Below are positions 23,128-30,804 of a DNA stretch of 30,850 nucleotides, piece after piece. The stretch comes from a virus: positions 1 to 30,850 of the IMG/VR virus record IMGVR_UViG_3300043427_000815, one strand, 5' to 3'. The notes under the pieces are model-generated. The model was given only the letters and a program-made list of their open reading frames with translations. It made no database searches and was not told the origin of the DNA. The position numbers and the translations under genes were made by a program. Each line of letters opens with the position of its first letter. Position 1 is the first letter of the stretch.

Positions 23128-23534
23128 AGTTTGCCGTTCAAGGCGTTGAGCCAGCACCGCAAGGCAGCAAGCGGCATGTGGGCAATGGCCGAATGGTGGA
23201 ATCATCCAAGAAGGTCAAGCCATGGCGTTTTGCCGTCAGCCAAGCTGCATTTGAAGCCGGGCACGAGATGTTTGAAGGTCCTGTTTACGTGGGCATCACA
23301 TTTCTATTCGCCAGGCCAAAGGCTCACTACAACACCAAGGGGCTAATCAAGCCAAATGCACCGTTTTACAAAATTAGTAAGCCTGACCTTGATAAGTTGT
23401 GCCGCTCAACATTGGATGGCATCACAGGCGTTCTGCTGAAAGATGACTCACAGGTTGCTTCTTTAATGGCAACCAAGCAATACGCCAACGAAGGCGAATA
23501 CATCGGAGCAATCATCACCATCAATCCACTGTGA
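23124..23534 (+). CDS. rusA: RusA-like Holliday junction resolvase
   Basis: This 136-residue protein has an N-terminal PAPQGSKR (the P-x-P-x-x-K/R motif of RusA) and strands around VYVGITFLF. The catalytic section is KPDLDKLCRSTLDGITGVLLKDDSQ, with D88 and D90, the D98-G position and D107/D108. The usual D-x-D-N-L-x-K is here D-L-D-K-L-x-R, a mild variation. RusA dimers cut four-way junctions, resolving recombination intermediates or branches in concatemers before packaging. The ATG at 23124 is chosen over an upstream TTG because of its ATGA overlap with the tiny gene upstream. It is followed by a GTGA overlap with the next gene. Confidence 0.9.
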   Translation: MKFAVQGVEPAPQGSKRHVGNGRMVESSKKVKPWRFAVSQAAFEAGHEMFEGPVYVGITFLFARPKAHYNTKGLIKPNAPFYKISKPDLDKLCRSTLDGITGVLLKDDSQVASLMATKQYANEGEYIGAIITINPL

Positions 23535-24271
23535 AAGGTTCAAAGCATCTCCGCGAATGCGCTGTTTGCAAATCTGTTTTCAAGATCCCAATCCTCAAAG
23601 GCAATCACAAAAGCGATAGGCAAACCTGTAGCCGCGTTTGTCATCTGCGATTTGTTAGTCAGCAGGCGAAACGCTGGACACAAGGCGAAATTGACATCAT
23701 CGAACAGCTCAGCACGTCCATGCCGCCAAAGCGTTTGTATCTGACGTATTGCCGAATGGCTGCTGATCGTGGATTTCCTAAGCGGTCAGAACCGTCATTT
23801 CGCTGCAAGCTCAGGTTGATGGGGATTCCCTTGATGCCTGAATTGGATTGGTACAGGTTGCATCAACTGGCGGAAATCTTCGGTACAAGCAGGCACTTGG
23901 TCTACAAGTTGGTCAAGCGTGGCTTGAAGGCCGAACGGGAATCAAATCATTCAAATCAGCCGTGGTTTGTGAGCCGCGCAGAGCTGAGGCGTTTTGCCCG
24001 TAAGCACCCAGAACTGTTTAGGCATTTTGATCCTGATGGTTTGTTTGTGGCGCTAGAAGATCGCAAGCTTGTTGAGCTGATCCTTGCTCAGCCGAAGATC
24101 AAGGCGCCGAATCGCTATAACCCCACACCAGTGAAATGCGTGGAAACAGGCCAGATATACGAAAGCTATCGCGCTGCTGCCAGGGCTGTTTTTGTTGATG
24201 GTTCCGCTGTCTATGCAGCGGCTAAACGTGGTTATCGGGCGGGGGGCTACCACTGGGTTGCCATGCGCTAA
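23531..24271 (+). CDS. Zinc-ribbon plus helix-turn-helix phage protein
   Basis: This 246-residue protein has a GTG start at 23531, overlapping the rusA stop by four bases. The N-terminus (ECAVCKSVFKIP and CSRVCHLRF) is a four-cysteine zinc ribbon. The middle has WTQGEIDIIEQL, a SANT-like start, and LAEIFGTSRHLVYKLVKRGLKAER, a helix-turn-helix. The C-terminus (VKCVETGQIYESYRAAARAVFVDGSAVYAAAKRGYRAGGYHW) resembles the NUMOD/IENR-type helix-turn-helix repeat found beside homing endonucleases, but no nuclease domain is present. It may be an early transcription regulator or DNA-binding accessory of recombination. Function is inferred. Confidence 0.7.
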   Translation: MKGSKHLRECAVCKSVFKIPILKGNHKSDRQTCSRVCHLRFVSQQAKRWTQGEIDIIEQLSTSMPPKRLYLTYCRMAADRGFPKRSEPSFRCKLRLMGIPLMPELDWYRLHQLAEIFGTSRHLVYKLVKRGLKAERESNHSNQPWFVSRAELRRFARKHPELFRHFDPDGLFVALEDRKLVELILAQPKIKAPNRYNPTPVKCVETGQIYESYRAAARAVFVDGSAVYAAAKRGYRAGGYHWVAMR

Positions 24272-25210: not shown

Positions 25211-25499
25211 CACTGCCTTCACCGCGAAATTCCGTATTCAGGAGAATCGCAACCGTAAAAACGACAAATCCCCCGAGGAGAACATCGTCGTTGATTTCAC
25301 CGCTGAACAGGCGATGGCTGCAGCGAATTACCTGATGACCATGGCTGAAAATGCCGAGGCCAATGGCACCAAGATTCGCATTTACACCGGCAAAGATCAG
25401 TACACCGAAGAAACCGGTTTTTCCCTTTGGGGTGGGAAATGGGGCAATAAAGGCCTTTTCTCTCCCATGAAACTCGAAACCCCTTCCGCCTCCTTCTGA
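25203..25499 (+). CDS. Small hypothetical early protein
   Basis: This 98-residue protein reads MADTAFTAKFRIQENRNRKND, then NIVVDFTAEQAMAAANYLMTMAENAEANGTKIRIYTGKDQY, and ends ETGFSLWGGKWGNKGLFSPMKLETPSASF. It is a compact alpha/beta protein with a Gly/Trp-rich C-terminal part. It resembles small conserved proteins found beside recombination genes in phages, but I cannot name the family. It overlaps the ribbon-helix-helix gene by eight bases and ends with a TGATG junction to the next gene, so it belongs to the same operon as the annealing protein. Confidence 0.65.
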   Translation: MADTAFTAKFRIQENRNRKNDKSPEENIVVDFTAEQAMAAANYLMTMAENAEANGTKIRIYTGKDQYTEETGFSLWGGKWGNKGLFSPMKLETPSASF

Positions 25500-25846
25500 T
25501 GTCCACCATGATTATCCTCACTGATTCCCAGATCGTTGAGCTGAACAATCGCATCGGGCAAATTCAACGCCTGATCGAAAGCGCCCAAGTCATTAAGGCT
25601 GGTGGCTCACCTCAGCCCGCTGCCGTTACCGAAGCCAAGCCCGCAGGCATCAAGGCAACTGTTACTCGCCGTCGTCGTCGCGCTTCTTTGAGCGAGGCCA
25701 AGGTGGTTGAAATCAAGCAGCGCCTAGCTAGTGGCACGGAATCGGCTGCAAAAATCGCCAAGTCATTTGGCGTTCACGTCAGCACGGTCAACAACATCAA
25801 GTACGGGAAAAACTGGTCACACATCAAGGTGCCAGCTAATTCCTGA
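25499..25846 (+). CDS. Helix-turn-helix protein with coiled-coil start
   Basis: This 115-residue protein has an N-terminal helix (IVELNNRIGQIQRLIESAQVIK), an Ala/Pro linker and an arginine run (TRRRRRASLSE). The C-terminal helix-turn-helix (SEAKVVEIKQRLASGTESAAKIAKSFGVHVSTVNNIKYGKNWSHIKV) ends in I-K-x-G-x-N-W, a motif shared with the protein at 26945. The coiled coil may dimerise it. It is a probable sequence-specific DNA-binding regulator at the end of the recombination operon. Its stop is convergent with, and overlaps by 11 bases, the end of a minus-strand gene. Confidence 0.75.
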   Translation: MSTMIILTDSQIVELNNRIGQIQRLIESAQVIKAGGSPQPAAVTEAKPAGIKATVTRRRRRASLSEAKVVEIKQRLASGTESAAKIAKSFGVHVSTVNNIKYGKNWSHIKVPANS

Positions 25847-26201
25847 TATCGCGTTGATAGTCCATCAGTTGCACCTCAAGGGCTGCAATTCGATTGGTGG
25901 CCTGTTGTAGCAGTGTTTGCTGCATAGACCAGGCGCGAAAAAGCTGAGCAGCAATGGGGCCTGCGTTTGGGGTGTTCTCCAGACGGCGGGCCTCTTTTTC
26001 AACGCTGAACTCTGCTGTTGCATCGCGTCTTACTTGCAGCCATTCCCAAGCGGCGTCATCCATGGTGTTGGGGTGTACCACATTCACGGTAGGTAGAGCG
26101 TCAAGATCAAGAATCACAACTTGCCGAAATAAGGGGTTTACTCCTTGCAGATTTTGGCTACCATCTGCCCAGCCGGAGCGATCCGGCACGCTACACACCA
26201 C
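25836..26201 (-). CDS. Minus-strand hypothetical helical protein within the early arm
   Basis: This open frame of 121 codons has a native-looking body: QVVILDLDALPTVNVVHPNTMDDAAWEWLQVRRDATAEFSVEKEARRLE and a helical C-terminus AQLFRAWSMQQTLLQQATNRIAALEVQLMDYQRD. The start is unsure. GTG at 26199-26201 is the longest form, GTG at 26115-26117 fits the beginning of the conserved-looking part, and ATG at 26063 is the shortest. A shorter form would leave room for divergent promoters before the gene at 26210. It is antisense to the rightward operons and convergent with the gene ending at 25846. No family recognised. Confidence 0.55.
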   Translation of the reverse strand: MVCSVPDRSGWADGSQNLQGVNPLFRQVVILDLDALPTVNVVHPNTMDDAAWEWLQVRRDATAEFSVEKEARRLENTPNAGPIAAQLFRAWSMQQTLLQQATNRIAALEVQLMDYQRDIRN

Positions 26202-26765: not shown

Positions 26766-26945
26766 ATGAATCAACTTCGCCGCTTCTACTTCACCATCCC
26801 ATCTTCAGGAGCTTATGACTGGGTAGTTGCCAGCAGCTTTGAAGACGCCAAGATCGCAGCCTTCGAAGAATGGGCGCCGCTCTACAACGAAATCGAATGG
26901 ATCACGCCCACCACTCACTCTGAAGTCAAACTCCCCGCGATCTAG
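26766..26945 (+). CDS. Small hypothetical protein
   Basis: This 59-residue protein begins MNQLRRFYFTIPSSGAYDWVVASSFEDAKIAAFEEW and ends THSEVKLPAI. It is a compact beta-alpha-beta-like pattern (FYFTIPSS...WVVASSFEDAKIAAF) seen in many small phage proteins in which a surface-exposed helix follows a strand pair. Its TAG overlaps the GTG of the next gene by one base. The function is unknown. Confidence 0.6.
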   Translation: MNQLRRFYFTIPSSGAYDWVVASSFEDAKIAAFEEWAPLYNEIEWITPTTHSEVKLPAI

Positions 26946-27298
26946 TGGCCGCCTCAAAAAAGGTTCTCACCGAGAGCAACGTGGTTGAAATTCTTCAATC
27001 CGTCGAAACCAACTCACAACTAGCCGCACGCTTTGGCGTCAGCCGTCAGGCCATTTCACAGATCCGTAATGGCACCAACTGGGTCAATGTGGCGCCAGAA
27101 CTTCCACGAATCCCCATCCGTGTCAAAGAATCAGTCCGCAAGGATTACTTGGCCAAGCGACCCAACTGCCAAAACTGCCTCGAATGGAATGGCCATGAAT
27201 GTTCCTACGGGTTCCCGGAGGCCATAGATGAACCATTTTTTGCCGTTGGATGCGACCTCTACAGAGGAAATCAGGGCGGTCCTAGATCAATGCCTTGA
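26945..27298 (+). CDS. Helix-turn-helix protein with a four-cysteine GFPEA module
   Basis: This 117-residue protein starts with GTG at 26945. Residues 7-50 form a helix-turn-helix (LTESNVVEILQSVETNSQLAARFGVSRQAISQIRNGTNW) closely related in spacing to the protein at 25499. Residues 75-106 hold C75-x2-C78, C86-S-x-G-F-P-E-A (86-93) and C103-x-L-Y. This combination also occurs at the end of the protein at 28094. The module looks like a small metal-binding (probably zinc) finger. The fusion suggests a DNA-binding regulator. It overlaps the next gene by 71 bases. Confidence 0.72.
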   Translation: MAASKKVLTESNVVEILQSVETNSQLAARFGVSRQAISQIRNGTNWVNVAPELPRIPIRVKESVRKDYLAKRPNCQNCLEWNGHECSYGFPEAIDEPFFAVGCDLYRGNQGGPRSMP

Positions 27299-27422
27299 CG
27301 CCTACTGGTCAGAGCGTTTCAACGAATTAACCATTGACCACCCGGCACGGATGCACGCTGCATTGCAGCCATTTATCAGCTATCAAGCCGAGAGATGCCC
27401 CGTATCCAATGCCCCCGATTAA
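27228..27422 (+). CDS. Small hypothetical protein
   Basis: This 64-residue protein begins MNHFLPLDATSTEEIRAVLDQCLDAYWSERFNELT and ends SYQAERCPVSNAPD. It is helical with a few cysteines. The ATG at 27228 gives a 71-base overlap with the previous gene; TTG codons at 27240 or 27246 would reduce it only slightly. It is followed by a 14-base overlap with the next gene. No family recognised. Confidence 0.5.
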   Translation: MNHFLPLDATSTEEIRAVLDQCLDAYWSERFNELTIDHPARMHAALQPFISYQAERCPVSNAPD

Positions 27423-27606
27423 GGCAACCCAGGCCCGTTACAACAGCCCAACGCATTTCTGCTACGGCGCCGATTGGACGGGCTACGGTTTGCATTCAGG
27501 TTATGAACCATGGTGCTGGGATGGCTCTGCCGTTTGGTGGGGACCTATCTGCGACACCTACTCAGAAGCCCTCAACCTTGCCAAGGAACATGCTGAACGC
27601 TGTTGA
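27409..27606 (+). CDS. Small Trp/Tyr/Gly-rich hypothetical protein
   Basis: This 65-residue protein reads MPPIKATQARYNSPTHFCYGADWTGYGLHSGYEPWCWDGSAVWWGPICDT and ends YSEALNLAKEHAERC. It is unusually rich in aromatic residues and Gly, with four cysteines, which suggests a compact extracellular-like or metal-binding fold followed by a helix. The ATG at 27409 is chosen because it begins the native-looking part. The upstream in-frame extension is compositionally foreign. It overlaps the next gene by 17 bases. The function is unknown. Confidence 0.6.
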   Translation: MPPIKATQARYNSPTHFCYGADWTGYGLHSGYEPWCWDGSAVWWGPICDTYSEALNLAKEHAERC

Positions 27607-27862
27607 ACTGGACCAACGCCGCGCCGATTTCATGGACACCATCTATGAGGTCAAGGGCCGCAACGACAACCTTTACACCGGGCTATGGATTGAATTTCAG
27701 CAACACCTCGCCAACAAATTTCGTGACCTTGATTATGAGGTTCTGCGTAGCGACATTATTCGTGGCGCTGGTGGCATTGACAACGACGTGGCTAAACGCA
27801 ACGCTGATGTTGCCATTACCGTAATGACCAAGCATCTTATGGAAGGTTGGAGTGATCAATGA
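27590..27862 (+). CDS. Small helical hypothetical protein
   Basis: This 90-residue protein starts at ATG 27590 with ribosome site AAGGAA. It reads MLNAVELDQRRADFMDTIYEVKGRNDNLYTGLWIEFQQHLANKFRDLD. The rest is YEVLRSDIIRGAGGIDNDVAKRNADVAITVMTKHLMEGWSDQ. It is mainly helical and acidic overall. Its stop overlaps the next ATG by four bases. No family recognised. Confidence 0.65.
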   Translation: MLNAVELDQRRADFMDTIYEVKGRNDNLYTGLWIEFQQHLANKFRDLDYEVLRSDIIRGAGGIDNDVAKRNADVAITVMTKHLMEGWSDQ

Positions 27863-28092
27863 AAGTCACCGCCCCATTCCTTAACTGGCTTGAAAATCGC
27901 GCACTGAATTTCCTTGCCAGTAGCCCCCGTGTTGGCACGATTCAAATCAGGATGCGCGGTTCGCTGCTTACCTACATCGTGCGGGATTACAACGATCCTT
28001 TCTGTGAAGGGCGAACAGATGAAGAATTTGTCCCTGATGCGTTCAACCTAGAGCGGATTTTCCATCAACCCTCCTACGGGGAAGAGGAGTGA
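27859..28092 (+). CDS. Small hypothetical protein
   Basis: This 77-residue protein begins MKVTAPFLNWLENRALNFLASSPRVGTIQIRMRGSLLTYIVRDY. It ends CEGRTDEEFVPDAFNLERIFHQPSYGEEE. An amphipathic helix is followed by a strand pair. The ATG forms an ATGA overlap with the previous stop. It is followed after one base by the GTG of the next gene, with a GGGGAAGAGGAG ribosome site in its last codons. The function is unknown. Confidence 0.65.
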   Translation: MKVTAPFLNWLENRALNFLASSPRVGTIQIRMRGSLLTYIVRDYNDPFCEGRTDEEFVPDAFNLERIFHQPSYGEEE

Positions 28093-28093
28093 A

Positions 28094-28474
28094 GTGATCC
28101 ACCTCTTCAACAACAGGCTGATTCTTGAACGGCGCAAGCTGTCGGAGAACTGGCGCTGTCGTATCCGCTTGGGGCCAAACCCTGAGCAGCAAGTAGAGGT
28201 GGACCTTTTTACGCCTGATCTGCGCACTGCATTTATCAGGTCAAACAACATTTACCAGGCCTTCCGCAGGGGTCAGCGTTTAGAACCCTTAGAAGAACCT
28301 GAACATACCGGCAAGCGTTGTTGGGATTGCAATCAGTGGGTGCCAACCTTGACCCACAATGGAGGTAACGGCTGCTCCCTTGGTTTCCCCGAGGCCAAGA
28401 GCTACATGAATGGCCGTTTCGCCAACCTCTGCAGCTTATACAGCGATGGAACCGAAAGTCTTGAGCCGGACTGA
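28094..28474 (+). CDS. Small protein with a C-terminal four-cysteine GFPEA module
   Basis: This 126-residue protein starts with GTG at 28094. The N-terminal part (IHLFNNRLILERRKLSENWRCRIRLGPNPEQQVEVDLFTPD) is beta-rich, and a short helix region (TAFIRSNNIYQAFRRGQ) follows. Residues 76-116 carry C76-x2-C79, C94-S-x-G-F-P-E-A (94-101) and C113-x-L-Y. This is the same arrangement as in the protein at 26945, with a longer second loop. The module is probably a zinc-binding fold. No family name known to me. It overlaps the next gene by 29 bases. Confidence 0.68.
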   Translation: MIHLFNNRLILERRKLSENWRCRIRLGPNPEQQVEVDLFTPDLRTAFIRSNNIYQAFRRGQRLEPLEEPEHTGKRCWDCNQWVPTLTHNGGNGCSLGFPEAKSYMNGRFANLCSLYSDGTESLEPD

Positions 28475-28619
28475 TTTCGAGGCCGGAAGTTATATCGAAG
28501 TTCTAGAACCTGCCGACGGCGGCGAGATGTATTACCGCACTTGCTACAAAGGTGTTTGTAGATATTCAAGCGATCTTTGGCAGGCCCAGGTTTACGAGCA
28601 TCAGATGACTTCACCGTAA
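28446..28619 (+). CDS. Small hypothetical protein, last gene of the rightward operon
   Basis: This 57-residue protein starts at ATG 28446 (MEPKVLSRTDFEAGSYIEVLEPADGGEMYYRTCYKGVCRYSSDLWQAQVYEHQ). It is a beta-rich, Tyr-rich protein with two cysteines five residues apart in YYRTCYKGVCRYS. Its stop is convergent with the HNH gene and overlaps it by 19 bases. The function is unknown. Confidence 0.6.
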   Translation: MEPKVLSRTDFEAGSYIEVLEPADGGEMYYRTCYKGVCRYSSDLWQAQVYEHQMTSP

Positions 28620-28933
28620 TCAATATCTTGATTGATCCAATCCATTATTCGAGCTTCACCAATCTCTGACCAAAAAGGCAAACTTCTATACCAAACCCGC
28701 CAATCTTTATGGCCCTTCGACATATTGCAGCCGAAGCAACATGCCACGAGGTTGGTTAATTCACTGTTGCCGCCTTTGGCCTTGGGGACAACATGATCAA
28801 GTGTTGGCGATCTACCTAACGGCTCAAAACAATATGCACAGTGATGGTTAAAGTGACTCAGAACAGCATCACGGAAACGCCGTTTTGCCTCGTGTTTCGG
28901 GATTAACTCCGAACCGTCAATGTGTTCAACCAC
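28601..28933 (-). CDS. Free-standing HNH endonuclease
   Basis: This 110-residue protein has HCAYC (C32, C35), TLDHVVPKAKGG with D46-H47, NLVACCFGCNMSKG with N61, C66, C69 and N70. The HNH fold has two zinc-binding CxxC pairs around a D-H catalytic strand and an N. It is read on the minus strand against the upstream operon and overlaps the last rightward gene by 19 bases. It starts with GTG at 28931-28933. HNH proteins in phages are homing endonucleases or packaging helpers. Its isolated, opposite orientation and lack of a partner suggest a mobile homing-type insertion, but no intron or inserted copy was seen. Confidence 0.88.
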   Translation of the reverse strand: MVEHIDGSELIPKHEAKRRFRDAVLSHFNHHCAYCFEPLGRSPTLDHVVPKAKGGNSELTNLVACCFGCNMSKGHKDWRVWYRSLPFWSEIGEARIMDWINQDIDYGEVI

Positions 28934-29202: not shown

Positions 29203-29748
29203 TTAGGTCGAAACGCCAGGTCTCGCCTTAAATGTTTCCCAAGAAGGCATTACGGTTCTGTTGTTGTTGTAATGGCCCTTGGCGGAATAGCTGTGTTCCA
29301 CCGTTTCGGACATCATGAACACGACGATCTGACCGATTAGCATTCCAGGCCAAATCGGAAGCCTGTGTTTTTGCCGAACATTTTTGATCTCAAGGGTCAA
29401 CACGGAGCCATTGAATCCAGGGTCAATCCAACCCGCGAGCATATGCTGATAGCCCTGCCTTGCCCGGCTTGACTTCAATACAAATTGACCAGCAACGTCA
29501 TCGGTGAAATTAAATATCTCCTGAGTCTCAGCAAGAATAAATTCGCCAGGAGAAAGCCAATACGGATCAGCTTGAGTGTGAGTGGCGATGCTATGCCTAA
29601 TAAACTCAGGAGTTTCAGCCACTTCAATCATGATGTTGTCGCCCAGTGCCACGTCGTAGCTAGCAGGGTTCAAACGCTCAGGATCAAACGGATGAATCAG
29701 TGCATGGCTTTGGCACAAGGCGCGAATCTCGTGATCAGACAGCAGCAT
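29203..29748 (-). CDS. dcd: dCTP deaminase / dUTPase family protein
   Basis: This 181-residue protein has LNPASYDVALGD, then LAETQEIF, LKSSRARQGY, GWIDPGFNGSVLTLEIKN and GMLIGQIVVF. These are the conserved blocks of the dCTP deaminase (Dcd)/dUTPase trimer fold, with E120 in T-L-E-I-K-N as the probable catalytic Glu. The enzyme would convert dCTP to dUTP or dUTP to dUMP, feeding dTTP synthesis during phage replication. It lies six bases after the lysin gene on the same strand and before a terminator. The subgroup (deaminase or dUTPase) cannot be told from these motifs alone. Confidence 0.88.
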   Translation of the reverse strand: MLLSDHEIRALCQSHALIHPFDPERLNPASYDVALGDNIMIEVAETPEFIRHSIATHTQADPYWLSPGEFILAETQEIFNFTDDVAGQFVLKSSRARQGYQHMLAGWIDPGFNGSVLTLEIKNVRQKHRLPIWPGMLIGQIVVFMMSETVEHSYSAKGHYNNNRTVMPSWETFKARPGVST

Positions 29749-29754
29749 CGAAGC

Positions 29755-30804
29755 TCAATAATTCCAGACCACGGTAGGTCGTCCAGGTCTGATTCCGCTA
29801 TGGATGAAACCTTTTGGCGCACCCTTGCCAGTGCTGTAAGACCAGTTGGCTAAGCACCAATTCTGAAGCGTGTAAATGTCAACGCCTTCGATGTACCAAT
29901 CAACGGCACCCGTATCCGGCGCATCGTATAAATGCTCAGATCGCGCCGATCCTCCAATAGCAGCATTGACCTTAGGCGGACGATAACCGCTCGTAATTAC
30001 AACAGGCTTATTACCAAATGCCTTACGCGCACGTTCAAGGAATTGACACAACACCATTGCCGTGTCGCATTGATATTGATGCTTAAATTTGCGCTCCTCA
30101 AGGTTTAACGCCAGCTCGCCATATTTAATGTTTGGCGTCACATTGAAACTAAACGGTTTATCAGGCGTAAAGGTCACATCCTTAGTGACAGGTTTACTGC
30201 CAGCCAAAAACAGATCGAGTTCATCACGGCGGCGACGAATCAAGCCCTCAAGAATCTCACCGCCGCCCTTGTTCCACCTAGGCAGCTCCTCCATCGCCAC
30301 CTTCTGAGGATTTTCCCCATTGTTCAGCCGCTTACGCAACGTGCTATCAAGCAGCGCACCAACGCCAACATTGAAGGCAAAACTGATCAACGCGCAACGC
30401 TGGTTATTCGTCAGCGGCACCCTGATTTGATTGTCAACAGCTTTGGCAAAGCGTTCAACATCAGATGCCAGCAACGCATCAGCATCGGCTTGGGTAATCT
30501 TCATCCCTACCGATACATTCGGCCCTGTATGGCCATAGCCCACGGTCGGCACACCAGCAGGGCACACATAACCCTCAAGCCGTAACCCCTCCCACTTCTT
30601 GATGATGTCCAGAGCAGGTTTCAAATCGTTTTCAGCCTGTTTGCCCGATTGACTCCAGACCTTGAACCATTCTTGGTCACGATCCAGCACGGAATCATCT
30701 GCAGCACAAATCGCCGCCTCAAGTAAATGCAACGCCGCCATCTGATGCGGAAGCTGCTTGTAATACTTGAAAAGATCAATCAGGCGAACTGGCGCTTTCG
30801 TCAT
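29755..30804 (-). CDS. Two-domain endolysin: GH24 lysozyme plus M15 peptidase
   Basis: In this 349-residue protein residues 1-58 form a helical lead (LIDLFKYYKQLPHQMAALHLLEAAI). Residues 60-200 are a T4-like (GH24) lysozyme: KKWEGLRLEGY with catalytic E72, PTVGYGHTG (87-94), TNNQRCALISFAFNVGVGAL. Residues 205-349 are an M15-type peptidase: SGYRPPKVNAAIGG, SEH (H291), GAVDW (D302) and GFIH (H335), the three zinc ligands. The enzyme would cut both sugar backbone and peptide links. There is no signal peptide or SAR segment, so it needs a holin or leaky membrane. The helical lead is known from other phage lysins of this layout, and its role is unclear. Confidence 0.92.
   Translation of the reverse strand: MTKAPVRLIDLFKYYKQLPHQMAALHLLEAAICAADDSVLDRDQEWFKVWSQSGKQAENDLKPALDIIKKWEGLRLEGYVCPAGVPTVGYGHTGPNVSVGMKITQADADALLASDVERFAKAVDNQIRVPLTNNQRCALISFAFNVGVGALLDSTLRKRLNNGENPQKVAMEELPRWNKGGGEILEGLIRRRRDELDLFLAGSKPVTKDVTFTPDKPFSFNVTPNIKYGELALNLEERKFKHQYQCDTAMVLCQFLERARKAFGNKPVVITSGYRPPKVNAAIGGSARSEHLYDAPDTGAVDWYIEGVDIYTLQNWCLANWSYSTGKGAPKGFIHSGIRPGRPTVVWNY

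Follow-up and report, generated by a model that had tools for sequence, protein, structure and literature searches.

Two small proteins encoded in a 30,850-base IMG/VR virus record (the whole stretch of DNA analysed here, hereafter the window) end in the same four-cysteine module, which is conserved in relatives and reused behind several different nucleic-acid-binding domains. Although Cys4 metal-binding modules are in general familiar on phage DNA-binding proteins, this particular domain is undescribed. On balance, we favour the view that it is a Cys4 metal-binding (probably zinc-binding) domain with an effector role at the C-terminus of small DNA-binding regulators of phages.

A Cys4 module common to two phage proteins

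Among the proteins encoded on the minus strand of the window are a terminase large subunit, a portal protein and a major head protein, and among those on the plus strand are a RusA resolvase as well as a Sak-like annealing protein. The head gene is similar to its counterpart in Synechococcus phage S-H1, so the window phage is, by sequence resemblance, likely to be a cyanosiphovirus. The synteny of a block running from position 26766 to approximately 28933 is kept among divergent relatives, and this block contains the plus-strand genes for protein A (family A, 26945-27298; 117 aa, GTG start) and protein B (family B, 28094-28474; 126 aa, GTG start). It also includes a 59-aa small gene (phrog_22131; 26766-26945, plus strand) that abuts the start codon of the family A gene, while a 77-aa small gene (27859-28092, plus strand) lies directly 5' of the family B gene and is kept with it in the compared relatives.

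The original prediction held that the two proteins have a C-x2-C...C-S-x-GFPEA...C-x-L-Y module in common, preceded by a helix-turn-helix (HTH) in one and by a beta-rich domain in the other, and both parts of this description were borne out by translation and by AlphaFold2 models. The translation of protein A contains NCQNCLEWNGHECSYGFPEAIDEPFFAVGCDLYRGN, which reads C75-x2-C78-x7-C86-S-Y-GFPEA-x9-C103-D-L-Y106 (27167-27262, plus strand), and that of protein B contains RCWDCNQWVPTLTHNGGNGCSLGFPEAKSYMNGRFANLCSLY, which reads C76-x2-C79-x14-C94-S-L-GFPEA-x11-C113-S-L-Y116 (28319-28441, plus strand). Structure prediction, proposed as a check of the module, yielded no confident AlphaFold2 model of it in either protein (pLDDT ~33-55).

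An IMG/VR search with each protein returned 15 relatives for protein B and one for protein A. The two genes recur together approximately 1 kb apart in relatives, with all four Cys residues kept, and only the family B gene was seen on one short contig (L004). Pairwise dN/dS values were ~0.10-0.20 for the whole genes and 0.04-0.08 for the module of protein B; both genes are therefore under purifying selection, which is stronger on the module than on the rest of protein B. Single-sequence BLASTP between proteins A and B gave E = 1e-4, while hhalign of the family B profile (alignment A4, 32 sequences) with the family A profile (alignment A6, 32 sequences, with the S-LBS1 row left out) aligned the two families over the module with a probability of 98% and E = 2.2e-13. 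A chance motif is ruled out by this profile match, the recurrence of the genes with four Cys residues and the low dN/dS values. No DNA repeat common to both module copies was found, which rules out a recent DNA duplication of one module, and any duplication must therefore be old.

Upstream of the module, protein A features a tri-helical HTH (residues ~10-42; 26972-27070, plus strand) that was modelled by AlphaFold2 with a pLDDT of ~80 and helices at residues 10-18, 23-30 and 34-42. It is of the phage HNH/homing endonuclease type, as residues 21-52 align with positions 247-278 of the 423 positions of phrog_59, an alignment that covers the HTH only. Its match to the Pfam HTH_3 model (E = 4.5e-4) falls just under the cut-off, and the Foldseek rows were mostly HTH proteins, all of them weak and none below E = 0.1. 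An HTH of the same type occurs without the module in another plus-strand gene product of the window (25499-25846), which matches protein A by BLASTP (35% over 46 aa, E = 5e-7).

The N-terminal domain of protein B (residues 1-60; 28094-28273, plus strand) adopts a bbbb-alpha arrangement in the AlphaFold2 model (pLDDT ~80) and tentatively has a DNA-binding, integrase-arm-type or AP2-like fold. Such a fold was expected from a W-x-A-x-I-R...D-L-x-T...A pattern ahead of the structural search, in which Foldseek returned nothing significant (best PDB E = 2.1). With VIA, two of the top three rows were an AP2 domain (6sy0; Z 4.0, 3.2 A, 59 residues) and the arm domain of a P4-like integrase (3rmp; Z 3.8, 2.2 A, 52 residues), with Z scores hardly above those of unrelated rows, and several integrases ranked near the top in BFVD. 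Alignment of the domain with the integrase arm profile of a related phage scored 20.65, compared with at most 16.8 in 60 shuffles, with a probability of only 16%. Protein B matched neither the Pfam AP2 model nor, at E 10, Arm-DNA-bind_3, a model that does detect the integrases of two related phages. Membership of either family by Pfam was therefore rejected and the fold is kept as a weak lead; the domain may bind DNA. Protein B also differs from tyrosine integrases in that it has no catalytic integrase domain. In two family B records (L150 and L151, from G016 and G021), integrases with Arm-DNA-bind domains are encoded within approximately 2-3 kb of the family B gene, which suggests a probably temperate lifestyle for some of these phages.

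Signature, spread and domain partners

A scan with the module alignment identified 80 viral loci. The pattern search proposed with the original prediction was carried out on IMG/VR using two degenerate DNA patterns that fixed only C-x2-C-x2-W-x3/4-C-[ST]-x2-F-P-[ED]. These returned 114 and 36 matching stretches (~150 in all), compared with a chance expectation of about one match per scan, as estimated from base frequencies for a collection assumed to hold ~4e10 bases. A fourth Cys followed by two residues and a hydrophobic or aromatic residue is present in 127 of the 150 frames, though it was absent from the scan pattern; most of the other frames have a Cys at the C4 position with somewhat altered surroundings, and two (L280 and L282) are apparently spurious. 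As Trp was fixed by the DNA pattern, its frequency in this set is no independent evidence.

Across 117 distinct proteins, the module is 35-45 residues long and follows the signature C-x2-C-x2-[WFY]-x(3-11)-C-[ST]-x2-F-P-[ED]-[AP]-x(n)-[FY]-A-x2-C-x2-[YF], with 6, 7, 9 or 14 residues between C2 and C3 and 14-18 between C3 and C4. The full pattern, including an Ala three residues before C4, fits 114 of these proteins. C3 is mostly followed by Ser or Thr, F-P by Glu or Asp, F/Y-A stands two residues ahead of C4, and the residue at C4+3 is mostly Tyr or Phe. The GFPEA core of the original prediction was over-specified: the positions that persist are the four Cys residues, F-P, the aromatic residue at C2+3 and the Ala before C4, while the Gly and Ala of GFPEA vary across members, as in CEFEFPEA, CSLDFPEP, CSMGFPDP and CSFSFPEP.

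In nearly all cases the module forms the C-terminal part and is preceded by a nucleic-acid-binding domain. Its N-terminal partners are an HTH alone, an NrdR-type zinc ribbon with an HTH, zinc ribbon(s) alone or the beta4-alpha domain of protein B. Among 59 diverse members that were classified, an HTH of the protein A type precedes the module in 40, and 12 of these 40 also feature a two-CxxC ribbon; a ribbon without an HTH is found in a further 13 members with two CxxC motifs and in one with four (two ribbons). Pfam analysis (E <= 0.01) identified an NrdR-type zinc ribbon in 22 of 60 members, with a best E value of 2e-13. In one protein (L131), for example, a linker joins an NrdR-type ribbon (PF22811; 32.8 bits against a cut-off of 27.2) to the module and no HTH is matched. 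The product of gene 39 of Synechococcus phage S-LBS1 has both a zinc ribbon and an HTH ahead of the module. Conversely, an NrdR-like ribbon occurs in phage S-CRES1, where no module was found anywhere in the record. These parts are thus separable and recombined, as both the HTH and the ribbon occur without the module and the module follows varied domains. The proposal that the module is a mobile building block is therefore strongly supported, with at least five different N-terminal arrangements observed. Two adjacent genes of different architectures that both encode a terminal module (L171:9964-10543, minus strand) provide a second paired case besides that in the window.

S-LBS1, a named isolate, was the only carrier found in 50,697 phage records, a search from which short divergent copies may escape by tblastn. 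A match in Vibrio phage PvVp04_M (E = 0.05) is antisense to an annotated gene and was taken as chance. No match was found in the plasmids searched, and two scans of bacterial and archaeal genomes with narrow peptide patterns identified no relative; these scans give no indication of a cellular origin, although patterns of this narrowness leave absence from bacteria unproven.

Relationship to known families

The view that the module belongs to no named family held within the libraries searched (Pfam, NCBIfam, PADLOC and PDB): no Pfam or NCBIfam model matched it above cut-off, and there was no PADLOC model or PDB sequence match. A profile assignment of both proteins to a named zinc finger was looked for and not found; the best partial Pfam/NCBIfam matches were Zn_clus (17.3 bits against a cut-off of 21) and zf-CCCH_4 (17.8 against 24.6). 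Pfam analysis of 60 members detected only ribbon and HTH families or families matched by a single member, and PADLOC gave weak HTH-region matches for protein A and none for protein B. PHROG matches cover the ribbon or the HTH in the alignments seen, with the C-terminus of phrog_36879 as a possible exception. No description of the motif was found in the literature searched.

About a third of the scanned module proteins start with the ribbon of the NrdR-like zinc ribbon proteins (PF22811), one of the closest known systems; in NrdR this ribbon is a DNA-binding part. It is followed by an HTH and/or the Cys4 module, with no other Pfam domain detected; PF22811 does not match the module, and proteins A and B have no ribbon. 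The product of S-LBS1 gene 39 (ATS93211.1, a hypothetical protein) aligns with a protein A relative over the HTH and the module (E = 1e-9), but has an additional N-terminal zinc ribbon in comparison with protein A. In the S-LBS1 paper (PMC6157547), a search turned up no mention of zinc or gene 39.

Proposed role, alternatives and gene context

As the module nearly always follows a nucleic-acid-binding domain, and these domains differ, a common effector or docking domain with one metal site is the simplest reading. In the proposed mechanism, the N-terminal domain (an HTH, an NrdR-type ribbon, both, or the arm/AP2-like beta4-alpha domain) would select the DNA site, while the module, held together by a metal (most likely one structural zinc) and a conserved core of aromatic, F-P and F-A residues, would offer a common surface to a common partner, either an RNA polymerase (of the host or the phage) or a second module. 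Regulators of different DNA specificity could thereby feed into one control step; in the window, this role would fall to proteins A and B, whose genes lie together in a conserved plus-strand block. Zinc binding is plausible from the four invariant Cys residues in CxxC...C...C order on chains that often bear ribbons, and zinc is favoured over other metals because zinc ribbons occur on many of these chains. We infer the metal, its identity and a regulatory role through a common partner from these features.

A more specific version of this model is conceivable, if doubtful: the module may be a virus-specific effector that docks varied phage DNA-binding proteins on one partner, for example a sigma factor or the RNA polymerase of cyanobacteria, and redox gating by the metal or an Fe-S centre is possible. 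It would then be the common plug of a large, almost wholly uncultured family of phage regulators. In S-LBS1, an RpoD-like sigma factor (L098:13414-14367) is encoded approximately 1.5 kb from the module gene, an observation relevant to a role in transcription. The gene context is also compatible with a function as a nuclease accessory or against the host, and the module may serve in either way.

It is unlikely, but worth considering, that the module holds an iron-sulfur cluster of the HiPIP-like or WhiB-like type and that this makes the regulators responsive to oxygen or redox state, or to light-driven metabolism in a photosynthetic host. The four invariant Cys residues, with aromatic residues at C2+3 and C4+3, would suit a cluster, and the module and HiPIP (PF01355) have the layout C-x2-C...C-x-x-F-P...C-x2-aromatic in common, where the C-x3-F-P stretch superficially resembles the HiPIP CxLFPG. 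In addition, the sole weak PDB sequence match of protein B is a HiPIP (1isu, E = 0.98), and the sole named carrier, S-LBS1, infects Synechococcus. However, there is no profile match in either direction, as PF01355 found nothing in the window at E 10 and the module profile found no HiPIP chain in the PDB, so membership of HiPIP was rejected on profile evidence; moreover, the same chains carry zinc ribbons and HTHs.

We also regard as improbable an explanation in which the module acts as a further finger that contacts DNA or RNA, with protein A and its relatives descended from HNH homing endonucleases in which the nuclease was lost and the HTH retained. Phage HNH homing endonucleases (phrog_59 and phrog_6156) have the type of HTH seen in protein A and in the 40 classified module proteins, T7-type HNH proteins were matched through the HTH by tblastn, and an HNH gene adjoins the family B gene in relatives. 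Module proteins nevertheless differ from these endonucleases by the C-terminal Cys4 module and by having no HNH nuclease domain, for which Pfam analysis gave no match in protein A or protein B. Furthermore, the kept synteny and purifying selection point to a retained function, and basic residues are not what is conserved in the core of the module. A third alternative, in which unrelated domains converged on a simple Cys4 zinc knuckle, might be suggested by so short a motif (35-45 residues) with two loops that vary over 6-14 and 14-18 residues, but is very improbable given that the non-Cys positions are common too (F-P, E/D, A/P, F/Y-A, S/T after C3 and Y/F after C4), that the full pattern fits 114 of 117 proteins and that the families align by hhalign at E = 2e-13.

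The module is an easily recognised new domain in a large set of uncultured aquatic phages whose small proteins otherwise have hypothetical annotations, and it marks its carriers as likely DNA-binding regulators. Its partner would reveal how such phages, including relatives of Synechococcus phages, take over or time transcription. The presence of the module in the S-LBS1 isolate makes it testable.

Several other genes were observed around the two module genes. A small HNH endonuclease gene (28601-28933, minus strand) lies just past them on the opposite strand and occupies the same position in relatives, down to ~47% identity. A 121-aa open reading frame on the minus strand within the plus-strand block (25836-26201) is kept in divergent relatives (47-82%) and is probably a real gene. 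Upstream, a 246-aa protein with a Cys-rich N-terminus (23531-24271, plus strand) has no PHROG match and is 28% similar to the product of S-LBS1 gene 46. Further downstream, the endolysin gene (29755-30804, minus strand) encodes a phage lysozyme domain and an M15 peptidase domain fused in one protein, and the adjoining gene (29203-29748, minus strand), which keeps this position in relatives, encodes a dCTP deaminase-like protein.
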